The position numbers were made by a program, and so were the translations under genes. Of a stretch of DNA of 64,000 bases, positions 17,459 to 60,763 are shown piece by piece. The notes beneath the pieces are model-generated. The model made no database searches and had not been told where the DNA came from. It was given only the letters and a program-made list of their open reading frames with translations. The stretch's first letter is position 1. Every line of letters starts with the position of its first letter. Origin of the DNA: Tricholomella constricta (lineage: Eukaryota; Basidiomycota; Agaricomycetes; Agaricales; Lyophyllaceae); assembly GCA_013368375.1 (NCBI GenBank), contig JAACJP010000046.1, positions 62,001 through 126,000 on the forward strand, read 5' to 3'.

Positions 17459-18894
17459 CCTGGCTACCCAGGCACCACCTGCCATCAACCGCCACCAGCA
17501 AAGCTCGAGAGCGACCGTGGACAGCGATGAAGAGCTCAGTGAGAAACATTTAGAACAAGCACCACTCAAGTCAAAGTCAAAGGTATGCCCGCATCTCAAT
17601 CTCGCGCAATTATTAGCTTACGAATTCTATACTGTCTCATAGAATAAGAAAACCCGAAGGCAAGAAGCCCACGACATGGAGGTAAGGGCATGATATATCA
17701 GTTTTCCGGTGCTGATGTCTTTTTTCTCATAGCAACCAGTGTTTCGAACACACGACAAGCCACAGAAGACAGCCCACCGATCACGCGCTACATTGATGAT
17801 GGACAAATCCTGGTCCCAGGTCACCCAAATTGTATACCCAAAAAAGGCGAATGGTGACATCACCCTCGGAGACCAGAAGGAGGACCTCAAAGCAGTCATC
17901 CGCGGCTCTATCGCCCACATGATTGAAGAAGGGCTCTTCGAGAATGCATTTCCGTCCTACTCCTCTCGTGCCACCTTCTCCCGGATCGCTCTCATTGCCG
18001 CTGCAAGCAAGGTCAATTCACCTGCAGCAAAACAAATCAGACAACGTCTTGAACAAGACCCTAGCATGGCGGAGGATCTGGCGGACTTGGTAAGTACGCT
18101 TTACCTCACAACAAACTCTATTCTGATTTTACATTCATCGAAGCCTATTCAGCGCCTGAACCTTGTACGCAAGAACGTGAAGCAACGTGCCTCTGCTATG
18201 GTCATTGCCTGCTATGGCCTTTCTGGCATGGAGCCGGAGAAGATAAGTGCTCAAATTGCAGAATTGAAGGTCAATGATCGATATGTATTTGCAACAAAAG
18301 TCGGGGTGAGCCATTTTTCTGATACTCGGTGCCCGCATAGCTGATGTTTCATGTCTAGTCCACGAAGATTATCAAGAAGGACATATATCTCCACACCGCC
18401 ATCAAGGAACTCATTCGGGATGAATTCTTCGATGGCAAACGATCATTCGGCATGAAACACATCAATGACTTCAACTCCAGCCATGAAAATAAATCTGAAC
18501 CCGAGCTACCTATTGCCATGGTGGCGCTGGCAGCAACAGCAGTAAGTGTCAGGGATTTCATTGATGTCTGAGCTGACAAGTCACTCAACAGATCTATGCC
18601 GCACTTTCAGAGTGGGATGACGGCATCAAGAAGAGCGTCAGCTTTCATGCAGAAATCTTTCAAGGTCACTATTGCCGCCACGTCAGCACCTTGGAGAAGT
18701 ATCATTGTGATCATGCGTTAGAGTTTCACCGTGTCATGTCAACACTTTTCACCGCAGCAGTTGGGTATGGTCCTTCGTTACCTCTACTCAGTTCAGTTCT
18801 CATGATGTTGTCACTCAGAGGATCACGTCCACAGGCTGTAGCCAGTAGCTCAGGTGGGGCGTTGGCTCTCCTGAACCTATCTGATGAAGAATAG
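17459..18894 (+). pseudogene. DUF6532 domain gene, 3' half (exons 6b-12)
   Basis: Exons: 17464-17582 (rest of exon 6), 17643-17681, 17733-18089, 18153-18305, 18359-18541, 18592-18764, 18819-18894 (stop TAG). All borders are GT..AG and all phases agree. The region from KAVIRGSIAHMIEEGLFENA to YAALSEWDDGIKKSVSF, CRHVSTLEKYHCDHALEFH corresponds to the DUF6532 domain, a family expanded in Agaricomycetes with unknown function. It joins at CCTGG to the 5' half on the minus strand at 55784-56955 without a frame change; together they give 652 residues. Broken by gypsy D, then placed on the opposite strand by inversion. Confidence 0.82.
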
Positions 18895-19170
18895 TCAGTA
18901 TCGGAAAGATAGTCAATTTACTAGTTGTAGAATTTTTTCAATGGATGCCGTTTCGTAAGCTACAAGCAACGTGAAATTGTAAAGGAATGAGAATAAAGTC
19001 TGGCAATGTTAGAAGCAGGTTCTAGGTAATTTACCGAAGTTTGAAGGTATTGTTGCCGTTTCTACAAATGGACTCTCCGAATTACCCTACATTTTGTCTA
19101 ACCGGCTAACGACACTAAATACAAGTTATTTCGTCTAGATTCCGGTGATTTGTTGTAAGTTAAAGAGGGT
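18895..19170. other. subterminal region of transposon T, DUF6532 side
   Basis: A/T-rich, non-coding, between the DUF6532 stop codon and the terminal repeat. The four bases next to the terminal repeat (GGGT) resemble those at the other end (GGGA). I see no longer repeat shared with the opposite subterminal region. Confidence 0.6.
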
Positions 19171-19184
19171 GGTTTTTCCTGATG
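19171..19184. repeat. terminal inverted repeat of transposon T, DUF6532 end
   Basis: GGTTTTTCCTGATG. An identical 14-mer at 60750-60763 ends the other part of T. In restored T the two are inverted: CATCAGGAAAAACC at one end and its complement at the other. Including flanking bases, 17 of 18 positions match. It is followed by GT (AC on the LINE sense strand), the 2-bp target duplication. Confidence 0.82.
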
Positions 19185-22074
19185 GTAGTGACATGGGTTT
19201 GAGTGCGCTGAGAGGCCCGTGCAATAGCCCAGCGTGATTTAGGGGCACTAACGATGAAGCGGTTGACAGAGCACCAGCCGGACAGGCAGTCAATTTTGAA
19301 TTGGAGACCGTGGGGGGAGGTCGTGAACAAGACGACATCATCTGCCTGTTCGACATGCGAAATAACACGACCATGGAGACGCACATCATCGACATGATCC
19401 GGAATAGAAAGGTCGGAGAAAAAGATGTTCCACAGACTGGGGGACGCCGTATCCCCTGTGAGAAGGCCGAGCAGTGAGGTGAAGCTTTCAGAGAGGGCCC
19501 CTCCGTGACGGACAATATAGTTCATATCGGCGTACAGGGTGCGTAGCCAATCGAAAAGGGGCCTGCAACTCCGTTGCGATAGAGCTTGGTCCATAGGAGG
19601 GGAATATCAGTGGAGGGAAAGGCATTTTCAAGGTCGATGAAGGCGATGTAGACTGACTTGCCACTGGCGCGCGCTCGCTCTATCGCACAACGTAGGATGA
19701 ACGAGTTGTTGTTGGTGCGGTAGTGCGGTCGAAAGCCATTCTGCGTGTCAGGGAGAATGTGATAGGTCTCAGCCCATTCGCGTAAGCGTTTGTCGATGAG
19801 GAGGGTTAATAGCTTGAGCATGCAGGACTCTAGGCCTATAAGGCGATAGTCGTTGGGATTCGTGGGGTTGCGTCGTCGCTTCAAGACGCCTATAAGGACT
19901 GTGTGCAATCATGGACCAGGTGCGCGGCGGAGGTCAATGCAGAGTTGCAGGAGCGACAGTAGATTCATATTGGGGATGCGTGCAATTGTAGGGTAAGAAA
20001 CATTGTCCGCCCCACACGCGCTGTGTAAGTTGTCCCGCTCTAACTTTCGCTTCACCCACTGCAGCTCACCGAGGGAGAGAGGCGAGGAGAAAAACCCCTC
20101 GGGCGTCCTGTCGATGGTGGTGGCAGGAATGATACGGTAGAACGCAAGCGCTTGGGCATACACATCAGCGTCGAAGGTGGAAGAGGGCACAGGAGGGGGA
20201 TTGATGCGCCCCCTGAAGACATGATGGAGCTGCTGCGCAGTGACCTGAGGTGGCCGCAATTTGGGGTCCGTCCATTCACGGATGAGAGTCCAGAACTGGC
20301 GAGACGTCTGGCACGCCTTCAGTCGCCGAAGGTTCAGCATCTTCGCCTCACGCTCCCTGTGCCGCCCGCGATGTGACTCAACATCAAAGTCGATATGGAG
20401 CACTGGGAAGGAGACCTCCTTGGAGGGGGGCAGAGGTGGGGTGACCGGCAAAGGTGTGGTTACTTTAGGCAGTTGTTGCAGGTCAGGGTCATGGTCAGTG
20501 GCAATAGAGGGCGGCAGCACGGGAACTGGTGGCGGCAAATAGGGAGCAACGGTTGGCAGCCGCTGACAGTGGGTCACTGCTAAAGTGCGCGCCTGACGAT
20601 GGTGGAGATTATCGGAGGAGGAGGGAATCCAGTGGAGGGATATGGGCGCAGTACGCGCGATGAGGAAACTGACAATAACTGAGTAGAGATCTCCGTTTGG
20701 GCAGTCCCAGCCCTGAGACTGGAATCGCGAGGCCCAGTATGTAATAGTTCGGATAACGGATTGAGAGGGAATGTAGAGATGCAAGGATGAGTCAGGAGAT
20801 GTCAGTTGAAGGACACACAGAACGGCCGCAACGGAGGCGCGCGCATCAGTCTGAGGGCCCGAGATGCGGAATCCTGCATTGTTGCGGTTCTTTGGGCCGA
20901 AGAAGACACCAAAGGCAGCAGTTGGGGGGGCTCCCAGTTGCCGTCGACAAGTCGTTGCAACATAGACTGTGAGAGGAGTCGTAACGGTAGTCACCGGGCC
21001 ATACAAGTCAATGGTGGCCTCTTCGTCCGTCTTTGCAGAAGCAAGCACCCGTTGGAGCTCAAGGTTTAGCTGCAGGCTATCACCATAAGCAGCGTCATGG
21101 CCTAGTGCTAATAATGCTTTCCGGATGGAGGGAGGGTTGGGGGGTGGTAGCACGGAAGATGCAATGGAAGGAAAGTTAACTTCGAGGCAGAGGTGCGCAT
21201 GATCCGACCACTCCGTGTCACTGATACGCAAGGCAGCGCTGGGTAGGCAGGGCAGGAGAGTGTGGGAGACGAGGGCGTAGTCTACAACGGAGGACCCGAT
21301 AGGTTGGAAAGAAGTGAGCGCCCCGGGTCGAGGATACTCGTATGTGGTGCCATTCAGAATCACAAGGGAATGGGCACGCAGAAGTCTGAGCAGTCGCATT
21401 CCGCGGGTATTTGTGAGTTCATCGAGCGACTGTCGCACGGGGCAGTCCGGCAAGGTGACCTGTCGAGAAGCGGTACGGGCATTGAGATCACCAAGGATGA
21501 TAACAGGTTTGGACGTGGCGCAGTGCGCCAGGTCAATCAGAGCGAGACAGCGGTCTTCGGGATCAGCAGAGGCCCACGCAGGCCAATTAGAGGCCGAGGG
21601 CGGTATGTACATGCCAAGTACCAGGCAGTCAGGAAGCTCAATAGCGATAACATCTGGCGCGCAGAGCGACTCTTTGACGTGAGCCGGAAGGGAGGAACGG
21701 AGCAAAACAGCGACACCCCCTCGTTGTGGTCGCAGGTGAGGATATGCGGGCCGAGGTGAAGAGTAAATATGGTAGCCGTCTGGAATGGTGAGAACTTCAT
21801 GTTGCGCAGGACGTAGCCATGTCTCGATGAAGAGAAAAACATCGCATTCACGGACACAGGTAAGTACATCATTTTGAAGGAGCTTCAGCGCAAGGTTGCC
21901 GTGTATGTTCCAGGCGCCAATGCGGAGGCTGAGAAGCGTAATTATAAGGCTAAAATGTATATAAGTAAGGTAAGGTGGCTCCCTACCCACGCGGCCCGCC
22001 ACGGGAGCCTCCACCTGTGATGAAGGCGAGGTCGTCGCTGCTGATGGCAGACGTGTCGCCGGAGGGATCAGCAA
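19185..22074 (-). pseudogene. LINE ORF2, 5' part: endonuclease and reverse transcriptase, disabled
   Basis: The APE-like endonuclease comes first (RIGAWNIHGNLA, FLFIETWL, VIILGDLNAR, SSVVDYALVSH, EWSDHAHLCLEV). The RT follows (DYRLIGLESCMLKLL, TQNGFRPHYRTNNN, YIAFIDLENAFPS, HVEQADDVVLF with the catalytic DD). Two lesions are visible. A TGA at 19909-19911 falls where the motif context (APGP-stop-LHTV) expects Trp. A one-base frame change lies near 19558-19565 in a C/T run (frame of VAGPF moves to PLFDWLRTLYADM). The last codons end at T; after removing T and one AC, the frame runs into the plus-strand 3' part. Confidence 0.85.
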
Positions 22075-23729: not shown

Positions 23730-24088
23730 TGTCACGACCGCCCCTAACAACCACCCCTAAAATCACATCCCACTACGCTTTCCCACGCCTACCCACTGTA
23801 TATAACATGACACCACTTCTTTCCAGACTCTTCACCTCGATATTACCTATTGTTAAGACTAGTTCTCGATTCTCGTTCTCGTTTCTCTCTCTCTCTCTCA
23901 ATCTATTTGGCTTCACACCCGTATCACTTGAGCTCGTTCGTTCGAATCAGCCCCGGTGAACACCTCCGTCAACGCTCACGACCTCCGAATACTCCTTCGT
24001 AGGCCGTCTTCCTTGACGGACGTCAGGCCTGTCCGCTTCGGTGGTTCCAGAATAACTCTGTAACCGGCGTGCTACACAGGTCCTAACA
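23730..24088 (+). repeat. 5' LTR of gypsy B
   Basis: Starts TGTCACGACC, ends GTCCTAACA. It has a TATATAA box at 23799-23805, and the likely RNA start ACCTCGATATTA (23834-23845) lies 35 nt downstream. A CT-rich microsatellite (TCTCTCTCTC) lies in the R/U5 part. Confidence 0.95.
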
Positions 24089-24100
24089 TAATATCGAGGT
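24089..24100 (+). promoter_or_regulatory. self-priming primer binding site of gypsy B
   Basis: TAATATCGAGGT directly after the LTR is the exact reverse complement of ACCTCGATATTA at 23834-23845, the inferred RNA 5' end. This matches the Tf1-type mechanism, in which the transcript's own 5' end anneals to the primer site. Confidence 0.8.
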
Positions 24101-24117
24101 CCTCCCACCCACCGGAC

Positions 24118-26979
24118 ATGTCCTCGACGATAGTGGAGCCTAACACAACCATCCGCTATCAAAACTTCGAAGGTCCCTCCTTCACTCAAAGGAGACCTTC
24201 ACCACCACCCTTCGAAACCTCCCCTGCCTCAACAGGACCTCCGATGCAAGGGACTTTCGGATCCAACAGGTCCAGGTTGGAACACCAGATCTTCCAACCT
24301 GGCCAACATGAGGGGGATTTTTCCTCAGTCAGTCAGGACCCACGACGACCCCTACCCCGAACCCCCTCAAACGTATTCAACCCCTCTTACCAACTCGCCA
24401 CCCCCAACTATCCCCCCTTACCACCATCCGCAACGACCTCCGGACCTCCGCTTTCAAGTAACCAGACTCCCGGATCGTACTACGAAAGGTTGAGGCACCC
24501 GGAGATGTTCCAGAGGAGGGATAGGGCACGAGAGGAGGGACAGGGACAGTTCGCTCGTCAACAAAACCCCTTTCTACACGGTTCAGACCACGAAAGGATA
24601 CTCTACGAACTCCGCATGACGCGAGAAGAGTTTTCACGACAAGCGCACGAGCTCCTAGTCGAAACCATGGGGATGGATCATCAACCCCGAACACCGGAAC
24701 AATGGGCCAACCTCGTGTTGTCAACCATGCAACTGCACGAAGCCCATCGATTACCCCCACAACTGACGGTGTTGCTACAAATGGGGGGAAACGAAAAAAG
24801 GTTACGCGCCCTGGCTGGAGAAATCCAGACGTCCAACGAGGGAAGAAGATTCTCCGACCCCCAAAGCGCGGGACGTTCCTTCCACATGCCAATTCAGGAG
24901 CCCATTCCCTCCAGAATTGAAACTAGATTCGAAGAACCTCCACGAGCGACAAGCACTGTCAATACGCAGACAGCTTCGGCTCTACTCAGGAGGATGAACC
25001 AAGGGAACGCACCCCCCAGCCAAGAAGGGTTCGAACCCACCGTCACACCAGGGACAGACGCTCGAAGAGCTCCGACGTTCGGATTCTGGGGAGCCCAAAA
25101 TTTGCAAAGGATCCCCGAAGAGAACCCCTCTTTCGAAGGACCATTCTCCAGGCCAAACTCGGGTTTTCAAGGCCCACAAAGGACCTCCGCAAGGGAAGAA
25201 GGAGCTCCTCAGAGGGAACCCGAGAATATTCCCCTACCTCCGTCGGAACAAGGAATCCCAACGCCGCTGTCGTACGCTCATAGCTACGAATTACGCGAAG
25301 AAAACCGAGAAGAAAGAGGAGCACCCCCAAGGACACGAGAAGACTGGCGCCAAACACCACCTCACCTGGCGAACCAGAACAGGAGGTCACCGCAAGGCCC
25401 ACGCCCAATCTCCCCAAGAGAACGCCGTGGAATCGGAGCGGACCCCGGCCCCGGTCAAAACGTAAACATCCTCGACGGAAGGCAAGGGACCCAACAACAA
25501 TTCCCCCAGTTCGAACAATACAGAACTGGCTACAACCCCGGACCAGCCCCACCCATACCCGGCGGACGACCGAACCCCCAGTACAACGGACCACCTCCAC
25601 AGTCCCAACCACCTCCGGGATCTTCAGGACCACCTACCCCGAGAGGAACTCAATGGGGAAACGGCCCCGGAGGACCAGGAGGGGGAGGAGGAGGTTATTG
25701 GGGAAACGGCCCCGGAGGAACAGGAGGTCCTGGAGGAGGGGGAGGTCACGGAGGATACGGACCACCACAAGGACCAGGAGGCCCGGGAGGCCCCGGAGGT
25801 CCCGGACGGGGAGGAGGAGGCCACGGAGGAGGAGGAGGAGGAGGCCCACCCGGAAATCCGGGAGGAGGCCAATTCGCAAACCCTCAACGACCCCCACCTC
25901 CACCACAACAATTCTTAGGCCCAAATCAAAACCTGACCCCGGAACAGTACCGACACCTCCTAAACCTGGAATCGAAAATCGACATCAGGAAACCGGACCC
26001 CTTCACTGGAAAAGAACCGAGGAGATGGAAGACCTTCGTCACGGAATGCCTAGTAACGTTTCAAGCCAAGGCGATTACCTACGAACAGGACCACCTGAAA
26101 GTATCATTCGCGAGCTCCTACTTAAAGGACGGAGCCATGGACTACTTCCGCCTGCAACTCACGTACAACCCGCAACACCCAATGTTCACGAACTGGGAAG
26201 GGTTCGTACACGAATTGGGATCACGCTTTGGCATACCGAACTCCAGGGTGGAAGCCGAGAATAACATCTCACGACTGAAAATGAAGGAATGGGAAAAGTT
26301 CACAGCTTTCATCATCAAGTTCGAACAGGAAGCATACGAAACAGGCTGGAACTGGGTAGCGCTACAATTCACGCTGCGAAAAGCGCTCCCCCAACGAATC
26401 CTCAACGTCCTAGCCATCGCACCAAGCCCTGAAACCTACGAAGGTTACCGAGATCTGATCACTCAAATCGACCGGAGGTACTGGGAACATCGTATAGAAA
26501 ATCCAGAGTCCTACAAACCCCTCTGGGCGAATAACACGAATACCTCCAACACCTCCGCACGACCTCCGATTGGACCTTCGGCCGGACCCGCAAACCGCAC
26601 GACGCCGCAAACGGCTCAAGGGAACAGGAACGCACGCTTGAACGCCGAAAGTCACGATCAGGACCCGGACTCAGGTAAGGAAGGTAAGGCGCAAGACCAA
26701 GAAATCACATGGGATGACGAAGAGGCACTACAAGCCAACAACTTCGGGTTCAAGAAGTCAACGCGCCCCTGGGTGAAGATCGATGAAGACGTAAAGCAAC
26801 AACGAATTCGAGACAAGGCCTGCATCCTATGCGGTGATCTGGAACACTGGATGCGCGACTGCCCAACAGCAAACACCATGGGCAGAGCCACCTATCTCAT
26901 CGGCGACGACATCTTCGAATTCCATCACAAGACAGAAGAGGGAAACGCGGGGGCGATTCAGGACTTGCCCGGGCTCTGA
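24118..26979 (+). CDS. gag polyprotein of gypsy B
   Basis: 953 codons from the first ATG after the primer site. It begins MSSTIVEPNTTIRY, with a long Pro/Gln-rich region, then a Gly-rich block coded by GGA/GGC repeats (about 25650-25870). The retrotransposon Gag domain is roughly residues 635-790 (WKTFVTECLVTFQAKAITYE, WEGFVHELGSRFG, KFTAFIIKFEQEAYETGW). A CCHC-like knuckle follows (CILCGDLEHWMRDC). Longer than most gypsy Gags because of the low-complexity half. The frame ends at TGA 26977-26979, just after a slippery heptamer. Confidence 0.92.
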   Translation: MSSTIVEPNTTIRYQNFEGPSFTQRRPSPPPFETSPASTGPPMQGTFGSNRSRLEHQIFQPGQHEGDFSSVSQDPRRPLPRTPSNVFNPSYQLATPNYPPLPPSATTSGPPLSSNQTPGSYYERLRHPEMFQRRDRAREEGQGQFARQQNPFLHGSDHERILYELRMTREEFSRQAHELLVETMGMDHQPRTPEQWANLVLSTMQLHEAHRLPPQLTVLLQMGGNEKRLRALAGEIQTSNEGRRFSDPQSAGRSFHMPIQEPIPSRIETRFEEPPRATSTVNTQTASALLRRMNQGNAPPSQEGFEPTVTPGTDARRAPTFGFWGAQNLQRIPEENPSFEGPFSRPNSGFQGPQRTSAREEGAPQREPENIPLPPSEQGIPTPLSYAHSYELREENREERGAPPRTREDWRQTPPHLANQNRRSPQGPRPISPRERRGIGADPGPGQNVNILDGRQGTQQQFPQFEQYRTGYNPGPAPPIPGGRPNPQYNGPPPQSQPPPGSSGPPTPRGTQWGNGPGGPGGGGGGYWGNGPGGTGGPGGGGGHGGYGPPQGPGGPGGPGGPGRGGGGHGGGGGGGPPGNPGGGQFANPQRPPPPPQQFLGPNQNLTPEQYRHLLNLESKIDIRKPDPFTGKEPRRWKTFVTECLVTFQAKAITYEQDHLKVSFASSYLKDGAMDYFRLQLTYNPQHPMFTNWEGFVHELGSRFGIPNSRVEAENNISRLKMKEWEKFTAFIIKFEQEAYETGWNWVALQFTLRKALPQRILNVLAIAPSPETYEGYRDLITQIDRRYWEHRIENPESYKPLWANNTNTSNTSARPPIGPSAGPANRTTPQTAQGNRNARLNAESHDQDPDSGKEGKAQDQEITWDDEEALQANNFGFKKSTRPWVKIDEDVKQQRIRDKACILCGDLEHWMRDCPTANTMGRATYLIGDDIFEFHHKTEEGNAGAIQDLPGL
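26940..26946 (+). promoter_or_regulatory. -1 ribosomal frameshift heptamer GGGAAAC, gag to pol of B
   Basis: In gag frame it reads G-GGA-AAC, the X-XXY-YYZ form used for -1 frameshifting. The pol frame (-1) is open from here through the gag stop (26977) into the protease. The same heptamer sits at the same place in element C. Downstream pseudoknot structure not assessed. Confidence 0.65.
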
Positions 26980-29900
26980 ATCGCGAAGATCTAAAACCGG
27001 ACCTTGACACTAAACTACGCGCAACGGCATTATCGACATCGGACACCCGCACAGTAACTCTCTCCTCCCATTCGTCACTGGCATTTCTAATACACCTCAC
27101 GCCAAACGGAGGAGGAGAAGACCCCGAAAACACGCTCATCAACAGCGGAGCTACCGACAATTTCATGGACTCCGACATGGCGACATCACGCGGGCTCCAC
27201 CTTGAGGAGCTCAAACCCCCAATAAACCTTTGCCTATTTGATGGGGAACCCTCCGCATCAGGCAAAATCACACACTATACCACCAACGACGTCAGATTCA
27301 GTGACGGCACCACTCAGAGGATAAGATTCCTCTTAACGAGACTCCACGAGACAGCGACGATAGTGCTGGGACTATCATGGCTGAAGGAGGTCAATCCCCG
27401 CATAAATTGGAAAGACCTCTGCATCACGCTACGACGGGGGTCAAACGGCAAAATTGAAGGATCACTACCGGACCTCCGAAGAAAAAAGGAAGTCGTCCCA
27501 ACGACAACAAGCACAGGAAATCAACGCTTACCCTCGCGGTCAGCTCGCTCCTTCACGATCGAAGTACAGTTAGAAGGATCCTCAACGCGACTACGGGCAC
27601 TTATCGATAGTGGAGCGGCGGGAAATTTCATAGCACAATCCTCGTGTACGAAACCGGAACCTCTCGCCAACCCCATGACCCTACAACTGTTCGACGGAAA
27701 CCCCAGCGGAGGTGGAGCCATTTCACACCATAGTCCCGAAACAATCAAACTTGAGAACGGACTACAGTATAAGGTCGACCTCCTCATAACACAGTTACAC
27801 CCGGCCACGCCACTAGTGCTCGGATTACCTTGGTTACGGGAAGCAAATCCGGACATCGACTGGCGGGAAATGTCCATGACCATGGAACAAGGGGCAGGAC
27901 TAGCCGCGATATCGCTTTCCCAGAAGACGCAATGGAGAACTGTGACCCTTGAAGAGGAGGAAGACGTCGAAGCTCCGAAACCAGCCAACCCCCTTTCGGA
28001 AAAACAACCCCTCCTCAGGGACCTCCTGGACGACGAAAACGATCAGAACGACACCTCCAGCGATAACATGAAGGAGGAAGACACCCGCCCAAACACCAAC
28101 GAACCTCAGGAGGAAGCACCAACACCAACAACAGAGACGCCAGAGGAGGTAACGGGACGGAAACGCACCCGAAAACCACCTCCACCGAACTATTTCCCTC
28201 CAAACGTTCCGAGGTCCAAATTCAAACCCCACCCCAAACGGAGATCCGCAACGTCCCCAACGACAGAAACACGGGAAGAAGATGAAGCCAACCCGGAAAC
28301 GGAGGTCGAAGACGAAACCGGAGAGGGAGAAGAGGATGTCGAAACACAAAACATCCGCCTGATTGGAGCGGCGCCATTCGCAAACCTCATCAGGGACGGA
28401 GCCACAGCGTTCCAACTACACATCTCCCCCACTGAACAAGAGGAACACCTCCATGCCAATAACACTTCCGACGACGAACCCAAGCAACCAAAGACAGAAA
28501 AGGAAATCTTTGAGGAAGTCGTACCTCCGGAGTACAGGGACTTCGAAGACGTATTCTCAGCGGGCGAAGCGAAAACCATCCCCCCACACCGACCTTACGA
28601 TCACACAGTGGAACTCGACGAAAACACTACCCCTCCCTTCGGAAAGATATACAACATGTCCGAACTGGAGTTGAAAGCATTGAAGGATTACATCGACGAG
28701 ATGCTCGGAAAAGGGTTCATCCGACCTTCGAGTTCGTCAGCGGGAGCTCCGGTACTGTTCGCAAAGAAGAAGGACGGATCACTCCGGCTATGCGTGGACT
28801 ATAGAGGATTAAATCGGATCACCAAGAAGAACCGTTACCCTCTACCTCTGATCGGAGACCTCATAGACCGACTTCAAAAAGCGAAAGTATACTCGAAGAT
28901 CGACCTCCGAGTGGGCTACAACAACGTCCGCATAGCTCCGGGACACGAATGGAAGACAGCCTTCCGCACTCGTTATGGACTTTTCGAATACCTGGTAATG
29001 CCTTTCGGCATGACAAACTCACCCGCGACATTCCAACACTTCATGAACGACATCTTTCACGACATGAACGACGTGTTCGTAGTGATCTATCTCGACGACA
29101 TTCTGGTTTTCTCGGAGACCTTAGAGGAACATCACGGACACGTTCGGAAGGTCCTCGAGAGGCTCCGGAAACACAACCTTCATGCGAAACCGGAGAAATG
29201 CACGTTTCACACTACGGAGATCGAATACCTAGGCGTCATCGTATCCCCCAGCGGAGTAAAGATGGACCCAGGAAAAGTCGACGCGATTCGGAAGTGGCCT
29301 AGGCCGACGAAGGTCAAGGAACTCCAATCTTTCCTAGGCTTTGCAAACTTCTATCGGCGGTTTATCGACAATTACTCGGGCATAACGAAGAGGTTAAACA
29401 AACTCACGCAAAAGGACACAATCTGGAAATGGGATTCCGAATGCGAAGGAGTCTTCGAGCTATTGAAGAAAGCATTCTCCTCCGCACCCATCCTACGACA
29501 CTTCGATCCTCAACTACCGGTGATATTAGAGTGCGACGCTTCCGACTTCGCCATAGCGGGGATCATCTCCCAATTTGACGAGACATCACAAGACTTACGT
29601 CCTGTCGCCTTCTATGCGAGAACTATGATAGACGCGGAGCTCAACTACGACATCTATGACAAGGAGCTCCTAGCAATCGTGGAAGCATTTAAGCAATGGA
29701 GGGCCTACCTAGAGGGATCTCCCCACCGCATTCAAGTGTACTCCGACCACAACAACCTACAGTATTTCTCTACGACCAAGCAACTCAGTCGCAGACAAGC
29801 ACGATGGTCGGAATGCCTGGCGAACTTCGACTTCCAAATAAATTACAGACCCGGAAGATTAGGAGCGAAACCAGATGCCCTCACGCGACGGCCAGACGTG

Positions 29901-31445
29901 TATCCCAAGAAAGGGTTCGAACAGGATCATAATTCGTTCAACAACCGCATCATCATACCCCCCGAACGATTGAACGCGGCCCTAATACTGAACGAGGAGC
30001 TCCTACTAAACAACATCCGGAACACACCCCAAGACGAATTCTTCGAGAGACACGCACCCAAACCCGGAGATGAGACCTCCGCGTTCTCCCTATCCGATGA
30101 TGGCAAACTACTCCTTCGCGACGGAAGAATCTACGTACCGGACCATCCCAGATTACGCCTCGACATCCTACAGCAACATCACGACCACAAACTGCGCGGA
30201 CATCCAGGGATCAGAAAGACCACACAACTCATCATGAGGACTTATTTCTGGCCCGGATTAAGGAAGGAGGTCACTCGATACGTCCGAAGCTGTTATACCT
30301 GTAAAAGAGCGAAGGTCCCACGCCATAGCCCATACGGACTATTGAAACCACTCCAGATTGGGCGAAGGGCGTGGGCCTCCATATCCATGGACCACATTGT
30401 AGAACTACCGGAATCGGATGGGTACGACGCCATACTGGTCGTAGTATGCCGCCTCACCAAGCAAGGCATCTTCATACCCTGTCACACAACGGACACAGCA
30501 AAGGAACTTGCTCAACTATTCTTGGAACATGTCTTCTCCAAGCACGGACTGCCTGACGACATCATATCGGACAGGGGCACCCTCTTCGTCTCCCGTTTCT
30601 GGAGCTCGCTGTGTAAAGCCCTGGACATTAAATCGAACCTTTCGACCGCGTATCACCCGGAGACCGACGGCCAGACGGAACGAGTAAATCAGACACTGGA
30701 ACAGTACCTCCGGATATACGTGAACTACCTCCAGACCAACTGGCGAACACAGCTCCCACTGGCGGAATTCACGTATAACAATACGACCCATTCGACCACG
30801 GGAGTCTCTCCTTTCTTTGCGAACAAGGGTTATCACCCCCGCCTGACAATCTCTATAAAAGACATACCGGCAAAGGAAGCCCAGGAGGTAGCCGTAGACC
30901 TCCGGACCCTCCAGGACTACCTCCGCCAAGAGATAGAGATCGCAAACGAAGCCTACAAACGATTCGCGGACAAGAAACGGGACCCTACACCAGATTGGGC
31001 TGTAGGAACGAAGGTATGGCTCGATTGCCGGAACATCAAAACGAAACGCCCCTCCAAAAAGCTGGACCACCGGAGACTGGGCCCCTTCAAAATCCTACAG
31101 AAGATCTCCAGCCACGCGTATCGACTGGAACTACCTCCGACACTGAAGGGAATTCACAATGTGTTCCACGTCAAGTTACTCGAAAAACACGAACACGAGA
31201 ACTTCCCAGGACGATCAAAGCCACCTCCGCAGACAATCGAAATCGAGGGCGAGGAGCACTACGAAGTAGAACGAATCCTAGACTCCCGAACACGAGGGAA
31301 ACACGTGCTCTACTTGGTACGATGGGAAGGATATGGCCCTGAGGACGACACATGGGAACCAGCAGGAAACATAGAGGGAGCAAAAGACATGGCCCTCGAA
31401 TTCCATCGTCTATTCCCAAGGAAACCACGAGACCCCACAATCTAG
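26947..31445 (+). CDS. pol polyprotein of gypsy B: two protease-like modules, RT, RNase H, integrase, chromodomain
   Basis: Open in the -1 frame from the slip site; the first ATG is at 27165, inside the first protease-like module, so fusion to Gag is likely. Counting from that ATG: a second module has DSGA near residue 148, RT YLDD at about 642-645, RNase H ECDASDFAIAG, integrase zinc part HPGIRKTTQLIM..CYTCKRAK, core MDHIVELPES, ISDRGTLF and YHPETDGQTERVNQ, and a C-terminal chromodomain YEVERILDSRTRG..WEPAGN. The first module has N-S-G-A (AAC at 27141-27143) instead of D-S-G-A, while C keeps Asp there. Otherwise intact. Confidence 0.93.
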
Positions 31446-31652
31446 AATCCGACGGAATTCACGCACTTCACGAAATTTATGAAAAGCCCCTTCAAGAAAA
31501 CGATTTTTATCACAAAATGTATTTCGAACACCGGGACAAAGACAGTACAAGAAAAAAAGAAAACACCAAGGAAAAAGAATTAACGAACTTCAGATGTAAA
31601 TATTCAACAAAAAGAAAGCAAAGAAGGTCCTAGACACCACCAAGAAGACCGA
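31446..31652. other. spacer between pol stop and antisense-gene stop in B
   Basis: About 200 bp, A-rich on the plus strand, containing the converging ends of pol (+) and the antisense gene (-). No other feature seen. Confidence 0.6.
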
Positions 31653-38494: not shown

Positions 38495-38499
38495 GTTTG

Positions 38500-38846: not shown

Positions 38847-39068
38847 TTACCCCCTTCTCAAGCGTCGAGCCACTGAGACGCGGAAAAGGAAATGTTCGAA
38901 TACGGGGAGTGTGGCGGTTATTCTCCTTTCTGGGTCGCGCGCGGTCACGTGAGGGGCACGTGTCGGTCTCGGTTGTAGGTCCTTGTGGGTGTTTTTGAGG
39001 ATCTCGGAGATCGAAAGAGAAAAAACTTAGGTTGTTTGTTCCTCCTCCATCTTCTCTTCGTCCTGCTC

Positions 39069-45780: not shown

Positions 45781-48611
45781 GTTTCCCTCTTCTGTCTTGT
45801 GATGGAATTCGAAGATGTCGTCGCCGATGAGGTAGGTGGCTCTGCCCATGGCGTTTGCTGTTGGGCAGTCGCGCATCCAGTGTTCCAGGTCACCGCATAG
45901 GATGCAGGCCTTGTCTCGAATTCGTTGTTGCTTTACGTCCTCATCGATCTTCACCCAGGGGCGCGTTGACTTCTTGAATCCGAAGTTGTTGGCTTGTAGT
46001 GCCTCTTCATCATCCCATGCGATTTCTTGGTCTTGCGCCTTACCTTCCTTACCTGAGTCCGGGTCCTGATCGTGACTTTCGGCGTTCAAGCGTGCGTTCC
46101 TGTTCCCCTGAGCCGTTTGCGGCGTCGTGCGGCTTGCGGGTCCGGCCGAAGGTCCCATCGGAGGTCGAGCGGAGGTGTTGGAGGTGTTCGCATTATTCGC
46201 CCAGAGGGGTTTGTAGGACTCTGGATTTTCTATGCGATGTTCCCAGTACCTCCGGTCGATTTGGGTGACCAGATCTCGGTAACCTTCGTAGGTTTCGGGG
46301 CTTGGTGCGATGGCCAGGACGTTAAGGATTCGTTGGGGGAGCGCTTTCCGGAGTGTGAACTGTAGTGCTACCCAGTTCCAGCCTGTTTCGTACGCTTCTT
46401 GTTCGAACTTGATGATGAATGCTGTGAACTTTTCCCATTCCTTCATTTTCAGTCGCGAAATGTTGTTCTCGGCTTCCACTCTCGAGTTCGGTATTCCGAA
46501 GCGTGATCCTAATTCGTGTACGAATCCTTCCCAATTCGTGAACATTGGGTGTTGGGGGTTGTACGTGAGTTGCAGCCGAAAGTAGTCCATAGCTCCGTCC
46601 TTTAAGTAGGAGCTCGCGAATGACACCTTCAGGTGATCCTGTTCGTAGGTGATCGCCTTGGCTTGAAACGTTACTAGGCATTCCGTGACGAAGGTTTTCC
46701 ATCTCCTCGGTTCTTTTCCAGTGAAGGGGTCCGGTTTCCTGATGTCGATTTTCGATTCCAGGTTTAGGAGGTGTCGGTACTGTTCCGGGGTCAGGTTTTG
46801 GTTTGGGCCTAAGAGCTGTTGCGGTGGAGGTGGGGGTCGTTGAGGGTTTGCGAATTGGCCTCCTCCCGGATTTCCGGGTGGGCCTCCTCCTCCTCCTCCT
46901 CCGTGGCCTCCTCCTCCCCCTCCGGGACCTCCGGGGCCTCCCGGGCCTCCTGGTCCTTGTGGTGGTCCGTATCCTCCGTGACCTCCCCCTCCTCCAGGAC
47001 CTCCTGTTCCTCCGGGGCCGTTTCCCCAATAACCTCCTCCTCCCCCTCCTGGTCCTCCGGGGCCGTTTCCCCATTGAGTTCCTCTCGGGGTAGGTGGTCC
47101 CGAAGATCCCGGAGGTGGTTGGGGCTGTGGAGGTGGTCCGTTGTACTGGGGGTTCGGTCGTCCGCCGGGTATGGGTGGGGCTGGTCCGGGGTTGTATCCA
47201 GTTCTGTATTGTTCGAACTGGGGGAATTGTTGTTGGGTCCCTTGCCTTCCGTCGAGGATGTTTACGTTTTGACCGGGGCCGGGGTCCGCTCCGATTCCAC
47301 GTCGTTCTCTTGGGGAGATTGGGCGTGGGCCTTGTGGTGACCTCCTGTTCTGACTTGCCAGATGAGGTGGTGTTTGGCGCCAGTCTTCTCGTGCCCTAGG
47401 GGGTGCTCCCTCTCTTCTTTCCGAGTTTTCTTCGCGTAGTTCGTAGCTGTGGGCGTACGACAGTGGCGTTGGGATTCCCCGTTCCGACGGAGGTAGGGGA
47501 TGTTCTCAGGTTCCCTCGGAGGTACTCCTTCTTGGTTTGCGAAGGTCCCCTGTGGGCCCTGAAAACCCGAATTTGGCCTGGAAAACGGTCCTTCGACAGG
47601 GGGGTTCTCTTCGGGGATTCTTTGTAAGTTGTGGGCTCCCCAGAACCCGAACGTCGGAGCTCTTCGAGCGTCTGCCCCTGGTGTGACGGTGGGTTCGAAC
47701 CCTTCTTGGCTGGGGGGAGCGTTCCCTTGGTTCATCCTCCTGAGTAGAGCCGAAGCTGTCTGCGTATTGACCGTGCTTGTCGCTCGTGGAGGTTCTTCGA
47801 ATCTAGTTTCGATTCTGGAGGGAACGGGCTCCTGAATTGGCATGTGGAAGGAACGTCCCGCGCTTTGGGGGTCGGAGAATCTTCTTCCCTCGTTGGACGT
47901 CTGGATTTCTCCAGCCAGAGCGCGTAACCTTCTTTCGTTTCCCCCCATTTGTAGCAACACCGTCAGTTGTGGGGGTAATCGATGGGCTTCGTGCAGTTGC
48001 ATGGTTGACAACACGAGGTTGGCCCATTGTTCCGGTGTTCGGGGTTGATGATCCATCCCCATGGTTTCGACTAGGAGCTCGTGCGCTTGTCGTGAAAACT
48101 CTTCTCGCGTCATGCGGAGTTCGTAGAGTATCCTTTCGTGGTCTGAACCGTGTAGAAAGGGGTTTTGTTGACCAGCGAACTGTCCCTGTCCCTCCTCTCG
48201 TGCCCTATCCCTCCTCTGGAACATCTCCGGGTGCCTCAACCTTTCGTAGTACGATCCGGGAGTCTGGTTACTTGAAAGCGGAGGTCCGGAGGTCGTTGCG
48301 GATGGTGGTAAGGGGGGATAGTTGGGGGTGGCGAGTTGGTAAGAGGGGTTGAATACGTTTGAGGGGGTTCGGGGTAGGGGTCGTCGTGGGTCCTGACTGA
48401 CTGAGGAAAAATCCCCCTCATGTTGGCCAGGTTGGAAGATCTGGTGTTCCAACCTGGACCTGTTGGATCCGAAAGTCCCTTGCATCGGAGGTCCTGTTGA
48501 GGCAGGGGAGGTTTCGAAGGGTGGTGGTGAAGGTCTCCTTTGAGTGAAGGAGGGACCTTCGAAGTTTTGATAGCGGATGGTTGTGTTAGGCTCCACTATC
48601 GTCGAGGACAT
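45748..48611 (-). pseudogene. gag of gypsy C with a one-base deletion
   Basis: Co-linear with B gag from MSSTIVEPNTTIRY (ATG at 48611) to the CCHC-like knuckle (CILCGDLEHWMRDC) and the stop at 45748. Near 47495-47502, B reads ATTCCCCTACC where C reads ATCCCCTACC, one T fewer, so the frame leaves at REPENIP and ends at 47262. The rest of gag remains open in the original frame (Gly-rich block, Gag domain, knuckle). A single recent lesion; the element could still be mobilised by relatives in trans. Confidence 0.85.
45781..45787 (-). promoter_or_regulatory. -1 ribosomal frameshift heptamer GGGAAAC, gag to pol of C
   Basis: Reads GTTTCCC on the plus strand. Same position and frame as in B, 30 nt before the gag stop codon. 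Confidence 0.65.
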
Positions 48612-48628
48612 GTCCGGTGGGTGGGAGG

Positions 48629-48640
48629 ACCTCGATATTA
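48629..48640 (-). promoter_or_regulatory. self-priming primer binding site of gypsy C
   Basis: On the sense strand TAATATCGAGGT directly follows the 5' LTR. It is complementary to ACCTCGATATTA in the LTR (48884-48895), which starts 35 nt after the TATATAT box at 48924-48930. Confidence 0.8.
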
Positions 48641-48987
48641 TGTTAGGACCTGTGTAGCACGCCGGTTACAGAGTTATTCTGGAACCACCGAAGCGGACAG
48701 GCCTGACGTCCGTCAAGGAAGACGGCCTACGAAGGAGTATTCGGAGGTCGTGAGCGTCGACGGAGGTGTTCACCGGGGCTGATTCGAACGAACGAGCTCA
48801 AGTGATACGGGTGTGAAGCCAAATAGATTGAGAGAGAGAGAGAGAAACGAGAACGAGAATCGAGAACTAGTCTTAACAATAGGTAATATCGAGGTAAGGA
48901 GTCTGAAAAGAAGTGGTGCCATCATATATACGGTGGACGTGCGTGGGAAAGCGTAAGTGATTGCGAGTTTTAGGGGCGGTCGTGACA
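48641..48987 (-). repeat. 5' LTR of gypsy C
   Basis: 347 bp, no difference from the 3' LTR found by eye. GTTTG follows at 48988-48992. Confidence 0.95.
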
Positions 48988-48992
48988 GTTTG

Positions 48993-55248: not shown

Positions 55249-55783
55249 TGTGATACCGGTCGTGAAACTTCTCGTGAGGAGAAGCCCTGCGGGCTCCCGG
55301 GTCGCAACTCTCTTGAGGAAGCGGTATCCGGGAGCGGTAGAGAGTGAGATAGGAAGATCTCCCGGGTCGCAGCTCTCTTGTAGAAGCGTTATCCGGGAGA
55401 TCGAGAGGGAAGAAAGGAGGGTGGGAGAGAGAGTCGTCTCACTCCCACCCGGGAGTTCCCGAGCCGTGTGACCCTGGGCATAGGGAGGTTTGACCCTGCC
55501 TCGGGGCTCTGTAGACCTGAGCAAGGTACGCTGTCACCCAGCGTGGGGTCCTAAGCCTAGGACATGGCGAGCGTCTTAGTCGCACTTATGAATGGCGAGC
55601 AAGGCAAGGAGATGATAGTATATTCGATAGCGTGTCTCTATGGACACGCTCCAAGTTACAGTAGTGTTTGTCAATATGTACATATGTATAAAGTAAAGGG
55701 ACCCGGGTACAACTGATGCCGGTCGCGCACGCGCCCAAGTGGCGCGCACGCCCAAGTGCCCAAGTGGCATACTCGTCGTCACA
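55249..55783 (-). repeat. 5' LTR of gypsy D
   Basis: 535 bp, the same length as the 3' LTR at 10664-17458 once A is removed, but in opposite orientation. Starts TGTGACGACGAG on the sense strand. The target duplication CCTGG (CCAGG at 55784-55788) lies outside it. Confidence 0.92.
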
Positions 55784-56955
55784 CCAGGTTGTCATCCGAG
55801 TCCGAGTCACCTTGAGGCTGATGGGGCTCGCTTGGATAGTCAGAATCATCAGGAAGGTCAAGCACACCAGAAGAGGAACTAAGGGTGGAGGCGGGACGAT
55901 AGTGGCGAGGCGAGAGAGGCATCTGAACATCTGATTCACTACTCGAAAGGAGGTCTTGTGCGGCATCATCTTTTGACCAGCGAGGAACCTAAGGACTTTT
56001 AACATTAGCAATCCACGTTCAGAAATTCAAACCCACCTCGAGATTGTAACCCTCAGCATAATTCTCCACATTTATATCTTCCTCTTCCTTGTTCTGGCTC
56101 TCATCAGACTCCGACTGGCTGTCTTCGCCGCTATGTGATTTGAAGCTCGAAGAATCATCATTGTTGTCATAGTCTATTGTCGGGCTGTCATTTTTTGTCT
56201 TCCCTTTCGCACCTACTAAGGGTGTAGTAAGAATTATTGAGCTTGAGCAAACGAAATCAATTACTGACTGTTCTTCAAGGCTGTCTGCTTCTTGACAACG
56301 GCAATACTCTGGGACTTTCTCAGGTCGATTCGTGGGTCAGGCTTCGTGGGGAGAACAGGCAAGGACTTGATGTTGGATTGTATTTGTTCTGCGTGATTGC
56401 TACGTCCAGTTTGGTCATGCTAAACACAATTATTGACATACCTGCTCTGCTTTTGGTGATGACCTTCTGCTTCTTGCTTTGCCGTTTTCCTTTGGTCATG
56501 TCAGATACTGAAGGTGAAGATCATTATCGGAAAGCAATCTCATCGAGTCAACGAGTAACAACTCTACCATCACGTTGGTCAGATGCAGAATTTTCAACGC
56601 CCTTTGGAGCTAAGTCTATCTCTGGCACAGATATTGTAGAGTGTTGACGCTTGCGAGATCTGACATTTTCTGCTTTTTTCCATACTGACTGCTGTTCAGG
56701 GGTAGGCAATTCACAGACAGCTTCGACGACATACTCTTATTTTGGTTGGCTTTCACATTTGCCTTTCGCTTTTCTAAGGATAGATGTAAGCACTAGATCT
56801 TGTCTTGTCTTTGGAGGCTATTGAATTGACTTACGTCCTTCTGGAAGAATATACTTCAGGTTGTCAATCTCGTCCTTGGAAAGGCCCTGAACATTTGTTG
56901 GGATTGACGGAGCTGGTCTAGTGTCCTCATGGCCAGATTCAAGTCGACGCTTCAT
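55784..56955 (-). pseudogene. DUF6532 domain gene, 5' half (exons 1-6a)
   Basis: Exons 56955-56835, 56735-56568, 56507-56442, 56388-56269, 56215-56037 and 55988-55784. All introns are GT..AG and phases agree. It encodes a hydrophilic N-terminal region: MKRRLESGHEDTRPAPS, YILPEGQYVVEAVCELP, KGKRQSKKQKVITKSR and an acidic Ser/Asp-rich stretch (SFKSHSGEDSQSESDESQ). The last codons (DSDSDDNL) continue in frame in the plus-strand half at 17464 (ATQAPPAINRHQQ). The start ATG is 212 bp from the divergent Plavaka ATG. Confidence 0.78.
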
Positions 56956-57167
56956 ATTCTGGAGGGCAAAACTTGGGGTGTTTGAACAAAGCGAAAGAAG
57001 TGGAGGCAGTGGAGGGAAACAGAGAAGATGGAAATTGCAGAAAAGGTGATACGATAAATTGTAAGTCAATTTCGCCTTTGATAGGAGTCGCTCGTTCCTC
57101 GTGCTTACTCATATCTCTTGTTCTTCAGTGCTCTATAAACTCTCAGACTTCTCGTACATCCCCAACT
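56956..57167. promoter_or_regulatory. shared divergent promoter region of transposon T
   Basis: 212 bp separate the two start codons. There is a TATAAAC-like motif at about 57134-57140 on the plus strand, 30 bp before the Plavaka ATG. Such a short head-to-head spacer suggests joint expression; this is inferred from layout only. Confidence 0.45.
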
Positions 57168-60100
57168 ATGGTTCAGTGCACTGGGTGTTATGAACTCTTC
57201 ACAAACGCTGGTCATAAGACTCATCTTCGTCTGACCAGAAATCCGAAATGTGCTGCTATCTACGCTGCCCAACTTCACTACTCACCTTCTCCGAGTTCTA
57301 GCATAGACATCGACCAGGAAGACAACCTCGTGCATTCCGATCCAGATGATAGCACGATACCATTTGAAGGAGACTACTTTGGGTATGGGACCGAATATGC
57401 TGACGATGACTTTGGAGACGACGGGCCTGAGGACGAACTGGATCATGAAGAGGATGATGCGCTGCAGGATGCATTGGATGCAGAGGAAGCAGAATTGGAG
57501 ACTAGATGGGAGCCAGACTATGATGCACCAATTCTCTCTGACTACGAGGATCTCATGGACGTTGACGACTCCACCGAGCTCCCCGCTACTAAAGCCGCTG
57601 AGCGCCAGATAATTGAAGATCGGCTTCGCCAAACACCAACAATAGTGCATTACCCTGGCGAAAAGGCAGGAATGCCGATTCCTGATGAAGAGCTCCATTC
57701 TGGAGGAGAGAAAGCGTACAAGGCCACCATTGGGTCATCAGGCAATCCCTGGGCACCGTTTGCATCACGGATTGACTGGGAGGTGGCAAAATGGGCAAAA
57801 ACTCGAGGATCGGGTTCAACGGCATTCAGTGACCTTCTGAACATCGAAGGAGTGAGTCGTTGATTTTTTTTTCGTCAATCCATTGCTGACGCTTTTTTGA
57901 ACCAAGGTCTGTGAGGCACTTGGGCTATCATTCAAGAACTCTCTCGAGCTTAACAAAAAAATCGATGATAAACTCCCTGGCCGCCCTCGTTTCACTCGGA
58001 AAGAAATTGTGCTTGGTGACGAGGTGTTTGAGCTCTTCTCTCGAGACATCCTAGAGTGCATTCGCGCATTATGGGGTGATTCTGACTTCAGTCCACACCT
58101 CGCTGTTGCACCTGAACGTCATTATGCTGATGCCAATTGCACTGTTCGTCTCTATCATGACATGAAGACAGGAAAATGGTGGTGGCGGGTACAGGTTTGT
58201 TTCTACATCATTGTTCGCAAATCTCAAGTTCACCTTTCTCGATGTTCTAGGAGAAAATCGAAGCTCGTTTACCGGGGGGCACAGTCATTCCCATCATCAT
58301 TTCCTCCGATAAAACCCAGCTTACCTTGTTTGGAAACAAAACTGCCTATCCAATCTATTTGACTATCGGCAACCTCCCAAAAGAAATCCGTCGTAAGCCT
58401 TCGCATCGTGGGCAGATCCTTCTCGGTTACCTCCCAACCTCACGGCTCATGCACATCTCCAATAAAGCTGCACGACGACGGACCCTAGCCAACCTGTTTC
58501 ATTTTTGCGTGGCTCACATCCTGAAGCCGCTGCATAAAGCGGGCCTCGATGGCATGAGGGTTGTTAGTGGTGATGGAGTTGCTCGTCGTGGCCATCCAAT
58601 TCTTGCTGTTTTTGCAGCAGATTATCCTGAGCAGCTTCTCGCTACGTGTTGCAAGAATGGCGAGTGTCCATCCTGCCAGGTCAAGCGTGATGAAGTTGGT
58701 GATCTCAATGCCAACGCAGAACTGCGTGATCTTGCAGCTATACTCGAAGCCCTCGAAGCTTTGGACCAGGGGCCTACAGCATTTGCTCAGGTGTGTCGGG
58801 AAGCAGGTATAAAACCTGTTGTCAAGCCTTTCTGGCTGGGCCTCCCTTACGCCAACATCTACCGATCAATTACACCCGATATCCTTCATCAGCTTTATCA
58901 AGGTGTTATCCGCCACCTTGTCGAGTGGCTCAAGAAGTGCTGTGGTCCAGCTGAGATTGACGCACGTTGTCGACGTTTACCTCCCAATCATAACATCCGC
59001 CTTTTCATGAAAGGTATTTCGACACTCTCGCGCGTTACAGGCAAGGAGCATTCCCAGATATGCAGCTTCCTCCTTGGGCTTGTCATTGATATTCGACTAT
59101 CTAATGGTGTATCTAATGCACGTATAGTTCGTGCAGTCCGCTCTCTCCTGGATTTCCTTTTCCTTGCTCAGTACCCCCTCCATTCAAGCGAAACATTGGC
59201 CCATTTAGACACCTCGCTCCGTGAATTCCACGCCAACAAGGACATCTTCCTTGACCTTGGCGTTCGAACCAACATGAACATTCCAAAGCTCCATTCTTGC
59301 TCCCACTACGTCATGTACATCAAACTCTATGGCACCACCGATAACTACAACACTGAATACACCGAGCGCCTCCACATTGAGCTTGCCAAAGATGCCTGGC
59401 GATCTACAAACTTCAAAGATGAGTTTCCCCAAATGACTCTATGGCTCGAGAGAAAGGAGAAGATATTTCGCCATGAGAAATTCATCAAGTGGCAGGTACA
59501 GGGATGCCCGGCCCCTTCCCCCTGCTTATCGTCATCCTTACCAGTTGGCGTTGCCTACGAGCGTAGTGTGAAGATGGCAAAGCATCCGAGTGCTAAGGCC
59601 GTACCTCTGGACCAGATTGTCAGCAGTTACGGTGCTACATTCTTTAGTGATGCTCTAGCACGATATGTCGCACAGTATCGCTATCCTGACGTGGCCCTAA
59701 CTGCTGCTCAGATTGAGCGCGAAGCCCTTCAAATCACAATTCCCTGCCGTTCCCTCCCCGTTTTCCACACCATCAAATTTTCTACACCCGACTACACCAC
59801 ACACAATGACCTTATCGTTGACAGCGCCCATGTCAGACCAGCCAGGCGAGATGGGCGTGGTAATGTCATTCCTGCCCGCTTCGACACTGTACTTGTTAAC
59901 CTCGGAAATGGTGGACCCGTTGGTGTTAAAGGTCCATTTTAACTTTGCTTTTTCAATTGTATAGTGCTGAAGTGTTCAATTTTCCCTCAGGATATCGTGT
60001 AGCTCAAGTTCGGGTTGTTTTTTCACTTCCAGAAAGGGTTTGCGCAAGGCTTTTTCCTACCGACATCATGCCTCCAAAACATTTAGCCTATGTCGAGTGG

Positions 60101-60346
60101 TTTACATCCTTCTCATCGCAACCGGAGCAAAACCATCATATGTACAAGATACAACGGTCCCTGAAAAATGGGGACCGCCTAGCGAGCATCATCCCGGTCA
60201 CCAACATTCGTCGGAGCGTGCATCTGTTACCAAAGTTTGGACCTATAGCACCTCGTGAGTGGACATCAAGCAATGTTCTGGATAAATGCTCGAATTTCTT
60301 CGTTAATTCCAACCTGGACCGACATATGTATCTCACTTTCTTCTAG
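57168..60346 (+). CDS. Plavaka-type transposase, intact, 1,002 residues
   Basis: Exons 57168-57851, 57907-58194, 58251-59931 and 59991-60346, phases matching; the last donor (GTCCAT) is weak. It opens with a zinc-finger-like segment ([22 protein letters not shown]-x-C) and an acidic linker typical of Plavaka proteins. The core includes [32 protein letters not shown] (first Asp), [50 protein letters not shown] (second Asp) and [17 protein letters not shown] (candidate Glu). This is the DDE nuclease of a CACTA/KDZ-related group expanded in Agaricomycetes. No stop or frameshift seen, so it may be active. Confidence 0.87.
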
Positions 60347-60749
60347 TTGGGTTCTAGCTGTTTAATACAAAAAGAGTTGTTTGGGTTTTACTTTGACCAA
60401 GCTTTCGTGTATGCCATGCATGTCGAGGGTACAATATCGTTGAATCAGTAAAGGGGTGTCCTGCGTGTCTCGCACATGTATTCTTGTTTTGGAAATTACC
60501 CACGTGTTGTCAGTTCCGCTCCGAAAGTAGAGAGCCAGCTCTCTACTTTCGGAGCGGAACCAACTGACATGTCTTGGCTGTAAACTCGCCGGCCATTATT
60601 GAAGGATTCTGCAACGACTCAAATGCCAAAAGTAATTGGCTGCTATCTTAGAGAAAAGCTAGGCCAGAATTATACTCAATAGGAAACTTTCTGCCTCTTC
60701 CATGGAAACAAGCTACATTATTTCGGGCCTTGTCTAATTTACGCCGGGA
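60347..60749. other. subterminal region of transposon T, Plavaka side
   Basis: Non-coding, between the transposase stop codon and the terminal repeat, with a strong hairpin in the middle. No ORF of note. Confidence 0.6.
60509..60568. repeat. near-perfect hairpin in T subterminal region
   Basis: A 22-bp perfect stem (arms 60514-60535 and 60538-60559) with a 2-nt loop. Then a one-sided 4-nt bulge (CCAA) and 5 further pairs (GTCAG/CTGAC). The DNA could extrude as a cruciform, or the RNA could end transcription or be diced. It may also be the remnant of a tiny inverted-repeat element. Confidence 0.85.
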
Positions 60750-60763
60750 GGTTTTTCCTGATG
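60750..60763. repeat. terminal inverted repeat of transposon T, Plavaka end
   Basis: GGTTTTTCCTGATG, identical to 19171-19184. Followed by AC and then LINE sequence. Confidence 0.82.

Follow-up and report, generated by a model that had tools for sequence, protein, structure and literature searches.

A Plavaka transposon of Tricholomella constricta and its divergent DUF6532 gene, a probable element-encoded partner of the transposase

In Agaricomycete genomes DUF6532 is annotated as a domain of unknown function. In a stretch of 64,000 nucleotides of the basidiomycete Tricholomella constricta (contig JAACJP010000046.1, positions 62,001 to 126,000; hereafter the window), a gene for a DUF6532 protein stands head to head with a Plavaka transposase gene. 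Does the DUF6532 gene belong to the transposon and, if so, what does it do there? We suggest, with a probability of roughly 0.8, that the window holds a cut-and-paste Plavaka transposon of the PlavakaB type with two divergent genes, and that DUF6532 is the transposition partner encoded by the element. That DUF6532 is a partner of the Plavaka element is itself hardly in doubt, and very probably the protein contributes to the movement of the element or to its continued activity.

The element is a Plavaka transposon of 6.7 kb that now lies in two halves, 17464-19184 and 55784-60763, with a rejoined length of 1721 + 4980 = 6701 bp. Its features, in window coordinates and with the basis of each, are as follows.

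10664-17458, plus strand: ‘gypsy D’, which splits the DUF6532 gene, with the end of its long terminal repeat (LTR) at 17458; outside the transposon proper (repeat analysis)
17459-17463, no strand: CCTGG duplication from the gypsy insertion, tail side (comparison of the half ends next to the LTR)
17464-18894, plus strand: DUF6532 gene, tail; remainder of exon 7 at 17464-17582, then 17643-17681, 17733-18089, 18153-18305, 18359-18541, 18592-18764 and 18819-18894 (splice model)
19171-19184, minus strand: DUF6532-side terminus, the same 14 bp as on the transposase side; present orientation from the inversion (window motif scan)
19185-19186, no strand: target-site duplication, GT on the plus strand, equal to AC before the inversion (empty sites hold one copy)
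55249-55783, minus strand: inverted LTR piece of the same kind as gypsy D, adjoining the head half; outside the transposon proper (repeat analysis)
55784-55788, no strand: CCTGG duplication from the gypsy insertion, head side, CCAGG on the plus strand (comparison of the half ends next to the LTR)
55784-56955, minus strand: DUF6532 gene, head; exons 56955-56835, 56773-56735, 56684-56568, 56507-56442, 56388-56269, 56215-56037 and 55988-55784, the last being the interrupted exon 7 (splice model)
56956-57167, no strand: 212-bp stretch between the two start codons, presumably a shared divergent promoter region (gene models)
57168-60346, plus strand: Plavaka transposase gene, 1002 aa, PF18759; exons 57168-57851, 57907-58194, 58251-59931 and 59991-60346 (splice model)
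60750-60763, minus strand: transposase-side terminus CATCAGGAAAAACC (window motif scan)
60764-60765, no strand: target-site duplication, AC on the plus strand (empty sites hold one copy)

A preliminary description, made from the letters alone, had joined the two halves into one unit with identical 14-bp termini and a 2-bp target duplication (AC), and this reconstruction stands. The terminus CATCAGGAAAAACC is exact at both ends, and the inversion has left both copies on the minus strand; a scan of the window allowing up to 2 mismatches gave three matches, the third one elsewhere, a number reached by none of 100 shuffles. The element lies within CATCAGG..CCTGATG termini, bordered by the 2-bp duplication. 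When the outer flanks are joined by a single GT (AC before the inversion), they match end to end at C11:919624-919861 (99%), C6:388766-389003 (98%) and C2:86297-86533 (86%), places being given here as contig and position. The junction was inspected in these three matches, and is also spanned by more diverged genomic places (70-81%). The three are empty sites with a single AC, such as the preliminary description had proposed to look for, and thus the unit was inserted whole with a 2-bp duplication. The target itself (60764 onwards and 19185 onwards) is a repeated sequence, several empty copies of which occur in the genome, and as judged by eye it resembles the end of a reverse transcriptase gene of the long interspersed nuclear element type.

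Within the unit, CCTGG borders the gypsy insertion on both halves, and the DUF6532 reading frame runs unbroken across the site when one copy of CCTGG is kept. The window copy is now dead: its DUF6532 gene is broken by the gypsy element and its halves are parted by the inversion. Two gypsy-like elements (23730-34189 and 38497-48937) lie inverted to each other in the window, the end repeats of each being identical over the 300 bases reported. These are young insertions that may have promoted the inversion.

The transposase gene has four open exons and a PF18759 match of E 8.5e-114 in a Pfam scan, in agreement with the intact transposase described before, and the model of a copy on C1 agrees with it in the four exons. 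The catalytic residues D, D and CxxC are kept in 17 of 17 copies, HxxxH and E696 in all 16 copies that reach that part. The DUF6532 gene, previously given 12 exons, has 13 in our model; it is open, encodes 648 aa and matches PF20149 over residues 397-603 (E 6.9e-39; 134.2 bits against a gathering score of 24), most of the domain being carried by the tail half. All exon borders are GT..AG models drawn from sequence alone. The two genes are divergent and their ATGs are 212 bp apart, exactly the distance first reported.

Whether this arrangement is peculiar to the window was asked of the whole genome (44,086,424 bases in 118 contigs). The PF20149 profile gave 38 exon matches, grouped into 22 DUF6532 loci, and the PF18759 profile gave 144 matches, grouped by hand into 56 Plavaka loci. 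Of the 22 DUF6532 loci, 16 are no more than 6 kb from a Plavaka match, every one of them head to head with it; 1.5% of the genome lies within 6 kb of Plavaka, so that the binomial probability of such proximity in any orientation is 6e-25. The window is a seventeenth pair, split by insertion. An eighteenth, on C11, has its transposase at 180 kb and its DUF6532 gene at 241 kb. Its termini (178348 and 242223) are each bordered by CA, which indicates that the roughly 58 kb of other DNA inside entered the element. This locus was tried as a Plavaka element without DUF6532 and rejected as such, its partner lying 58 kb off within the same termini and 2-bp duplication. Four DUF6532 loci (C2:879k, C56:13k, C91 and C105) are without a Plavaka match within 6 kb, and each has a CATC[AT]GG terminus downstream; therefore none of the 22 loci in the genome resembles an ordinary host gene. 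The C56 and C91 loci are identical over 3291 bases.

The DUF6532-side terminus is present at 20 of the 22 loci, the misses being C4 and C22:329k. Thirteen elements have both ends, and identical 2-bp flanks are found in 10 of them (window GT, C5 CG, C20 CC, C25 CA, C2:1824k TT, C56 TC, C50 GT, C11 CA, C15 CT and C17 CT), the three without being C1:2342k, C18:633k and C3:549k. The transposase-side ends of the C26, C29 and C55 copies were not found in the 446-461 bases examined beyond the tile. The C18 and C5 copies are 99.6% alike and those on C26 and C29 99.8-99.9% alike, in each case at different sites; thus the family has moved recently. DUF6532 genes occur with Plavaka-type elements in this genome, and the two genes are contained in a single unit that has moved as such.

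Shorter relatives with the same ends are also present. Elements of 2.4 kb at C15:234513-236899 and C17:355839-358220 are 98.7% alike, share the termini and each have a CT duplication; the C17 element retains remains of both genes, and the two are deletion derivatives of the two-gene element. The motif CATCWGGAAAA occurs 207 times in the genome, as against 27 times for a reversed control, often in facing pairs 1.2-1.6 kb apart (e.g., C4:334014-335256, C4:357170-358411, C4:380327-381569, C5:1349636-1350925, C7:922196-923566 and C8:390589-391878). Judged by the spacing of the termini, such pairs are probably short nonautonomous derivatives resembling miniature inverted-repeat transposable elements.

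A transposase tree took in 29 of the 56 Plavaka loci and split them into 18 rows, of which 17 are labelled DUF6532 and the other is C11, and 11 rows that lack a PF20149 match, with support of 100/100, at a place where the tree program flags long branches. All 18 transposase loci of the first clade have a DUF6532 partner: 16 head to head within 6 kb, together with the window and C11. The preliminary description had held that its proposal would fall if copies with these termini never included DUF6532, and the opposite is found.

Transposase and DUF6532 have also descended together. Distances between transposases and between DUF6532 proteins are correlated with r 0.94 over 17 pairs and r 0.90 over the 14 distinct pairs (Mantel, permutation p 1e-4), and within groups r is 0.97 (8 pairs) and 0.98 (6 pairs, p 0.004). 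The two have thus kept company over a deep divergence within this one genome, and the co-descent suggested for examination at the outset is present. DUF6532 diverges faster, with a p-distance of about 0.73 between subfamilies where the transposase differs by 0.45. In comparisons of related copies, the ratio of nonsynonymous to synonymous substitution rates (dN/dS) is 0.090, 0.083, 0.091, 0.098, 0.259 and 0.066 for the DUF6532 domain, the last at a dS of 1.7 and so near saturation, and 0.110, 0.169, 0.091, 0.107 and 0.164 for the transposase; seven copy pairs were compared, of which one was saturated in both genes, and for the transposase one further comparison was omitted. Both genes are under purifying selection, and on these values selection has preserved the DUF6532 protein with roughly the strictness seen for the transposase.

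The 11 transposases of the sister clade were considered as partnerless, but this was rejected, as a divergent second gene was found there too. The element C3:1286217-1292534 has CATCAGG ends and a divergent second gene that a Pfam scan did not place in PF20149. Aligned by hhalign to a profile of 14 DUF6532 proteins, the product of this gene scores 43.9 (E 3.8e-5, probability 71%, 73 columns), whereas the best of 60 shuffles scores 18.9, the reversed sequence 15.0 and the best of 59 transposase pieces 23.7. The window DUF6532 gene and the C3 gene have one intron in common, identical in phase and in its position within a motif ...A|xxxAxxxW..G, and two further introns agree in phase and are displaced by some residues. 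A search with the C3 protein gave 19 exon matches in seven loci including its own (C3:1286217-1292534, C26:609k, C18:297k, C38:289k, C18:143k, C35:430k and C18:50k), three of them weak (E 9e-5 to 4e-4); the C38 copy retains the motif and its intron place. Each of the seven is divergent to a Plavaka match, which lies 15.5 kb away for C18:297k and within about 2 kb for the other six. Of the transposases next to them, four are sister-clade rows of the tree, while those at C26:606k, C35:428k and C38:286k are outside it. On this alignment and intron evidence the second gene of the sister clade is identified as a remote relative of DUF6532, and the partnership extends beyond the DUF6532 of Pfam. A DUF6532-like partner arranged head to head is therefore probably older than the split between the clades.

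As to what the protein might do, it consists of a long, disordered, partly basic and poorly conserved N-terminal part and an all-helical C-terminal domain. The basic runs in the disordered part would fit a nuclear protein. An AlphaFold2 model of the domain (P0002) is all-helical, block means being 78-93 across most of the core, and a model from the second subfamily (P0007) shows a similar helical domain. A structure search with both models gave no convincing match among solved or viral structures; TetR-family regulators recur among the weak matches of both, and no conclusion is built on them. A TnpA-like factor would be expected to use repeats near the ends as binding sites. GTA[GC]C repeats in these parts, a motif picked by eye from the C50 and C20 elements, exceed shuffles at both ends of C50 and on the DUF6532 side of C20 (p 0.003-0.007), are weaker at the other end of C20 (0.116) and in C11 (0.066), and are not above shuffles in the window and most other families. 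We infer a biochemical role along the following lines. One gene encodes the DDE transposase and the divergent gene a DUF6532 protein that is most likely a nuclear DNA-binding factor. This factor might bind the element ends or the shared promoter, and might take part in assembling or regulating the transposase complex, as TnpA serves TnpD in CACTA elements. The likeness to TnpA is offered tentatively, at slightly less than even odds.

Other readings of the same locus have to be weighed. The halves are 36 kb apart in the window and the region is rich in repeats, with gypsy copies in inverted orientation, so the unit might be an artefact in which unrelated pieces lie beside chance termini, or a misassembly. 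This is refuted by the empty sites, the gypsy duplication and the in-frame junction, and by uninterrupted copies elsewhere such as C1:2342193-2348834, which has both genes inside both termini; its probability is negligible. It is also very improbable that the element took up a host gene on one occasion and that DUF6532 has since ridden along as passive cargo, although the N-terminal part is poorly conserved and the nonautonomous derivatives C15 and C17 have no intact DUF6532 gene. A passenger would decay, whereas dN/dS between copies is 0.07-0.26; the co-descent holds between transposases with 63% of positions different, and in the sister clade a remote homologue stands head to head in the corresponding place. 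The preliminary description had allowed either an accessory factor or cargo, and the dN/dS values favour the former. Its proposal that DUF6532 travels with the element is borne out by the shared unit, the empty sites, the head-to-head loci and the co-descent.

The main rival to a TnpA-like partner is an anti-silencing factor, like VANC or the TET/JBP dioxygenases, that opens the chromatin of the element and stands outside the cut-and-paste reaction. Co-descent and purifying selection fit this equally well, and the faster divergence of DUF6532 is what would be expected of an arms-race or end-specific protein. The fold of dioxygenases is a double-stranded beta-helix, whereas the DUF6532 model is all-helical, so that TET/JBP chemistry seems unlikely. 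Plavaka families with TET/JBP genes do exist in the published account (PMC12730594), and anti-silencing genes are thus tolerated in the superfamily. In this genome, the pairing with DUF6532 is far more regular than an optional add-on would be, and no TET/JBP match lies within 10 kb of any DUF6532 locus. The 23 genomic matches to PF12851, the TET/JBP model, are all farther away (e.g., C6:995473, C39:264029, C17:814288 and C10:65237), with PE-type proteins being too distant for the model and not searched; these matches are probably parts of other transposons. We therefore consider an anti-silencing role rather unlikely, and retain the transposition partner as the preferred reading.

PIF/Harbinger elements carry a transposase and a Myb-like second protein. 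They share with the window element the two-gene layout of transposase and helper, with a different transposase and helper family. Closer to hand, the main text of Kojima 2025 (PMC12730594) describes PlavakaB as having CATCA..TGATG ends, 2- or 3-bp duplications and TET/JBP genes in some families. The window element resembles it in its PF18759 transposase with D, D, CxxC, HxxxH and E, in its termini, which like those of other copies fit 5'-CATCA..TGATG-3', and in its 2-bp duplication; it differs in that its extra gene is DUF6532, and no TET/JBP match was found by Pfam in the two window proteins. That main text contains no DUF6532 (‘DUF’ matches an author name alone), nor do the parts examined mention a head-to-head second gene. 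The same source relates Plavaka transposases to EnSpm and reports two-protein Nuwa families (PMC12730594). CACTA/EnSpm elements, as outlined in PMC8195511, likewise have two proteins each (TnpA and TnpD), one a transposase of the DDE type and the other a multi-exon protein that diverges fast. Their ends are CAC..GTG with 3-bp duplications, whereas those of the window element are CATC..GATG with 2 bp, and TnpA and TnpD come from overlapping transcripts rather than divergent genes (PMC8195511). Neither Transposase_24 (TnpA) nor Transposase_21 (TnpD) was matched by the two window proteins at E <= 1 in the Pfam scan. VANC of the Arabidopsis VANDAL elements is also a second protein that is encoded by the element and serves it (PMC10398659, PMC5735166, as excerpted); VANDALs are plant elements of the Mutator-like type, and VANC and DUF6532 are unrelated as far as their names go. 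One Ganoderma paper, in its available portion, lists domains that are confined to some species, with Plavaka and DUF6532 next to each other. The termini are thus already published for PlavakaB, and the pairing with DUF6532 was found in no publication in the accessible literature on DUF6532 or Plavaka; subscription papers, Repbase Reports and Iyer et al. 2014 were not covered, and may mention it.

From this one genome we infer that the pairing is general across species. There is perhaps an even chance that the DUF6532 superfamily, including the relatives missed by Pfam, is a universal, ancient, obligatory and divergently transcribed second protein and transposition factor of Plavaka transposons, kept through the deep split between the clades. 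If so, DUF6532, which across Agaricomycetes has so far looked like a host domain, would have to be reclassed as a family of transposon proteins. It would also represent a new class of transposition co-factor, with its own fold. Should DUF6532 be the second Plavaka protein, such genes would have to be masked as transposon genes in Agaricomycete genomes, and counts of ‘expanded families’ would need correction. It would become possible to test an active two-component fungal transposon, and Plavaka, a CACTA-related superfamily, would gain a candidate for a TnpA-like function.
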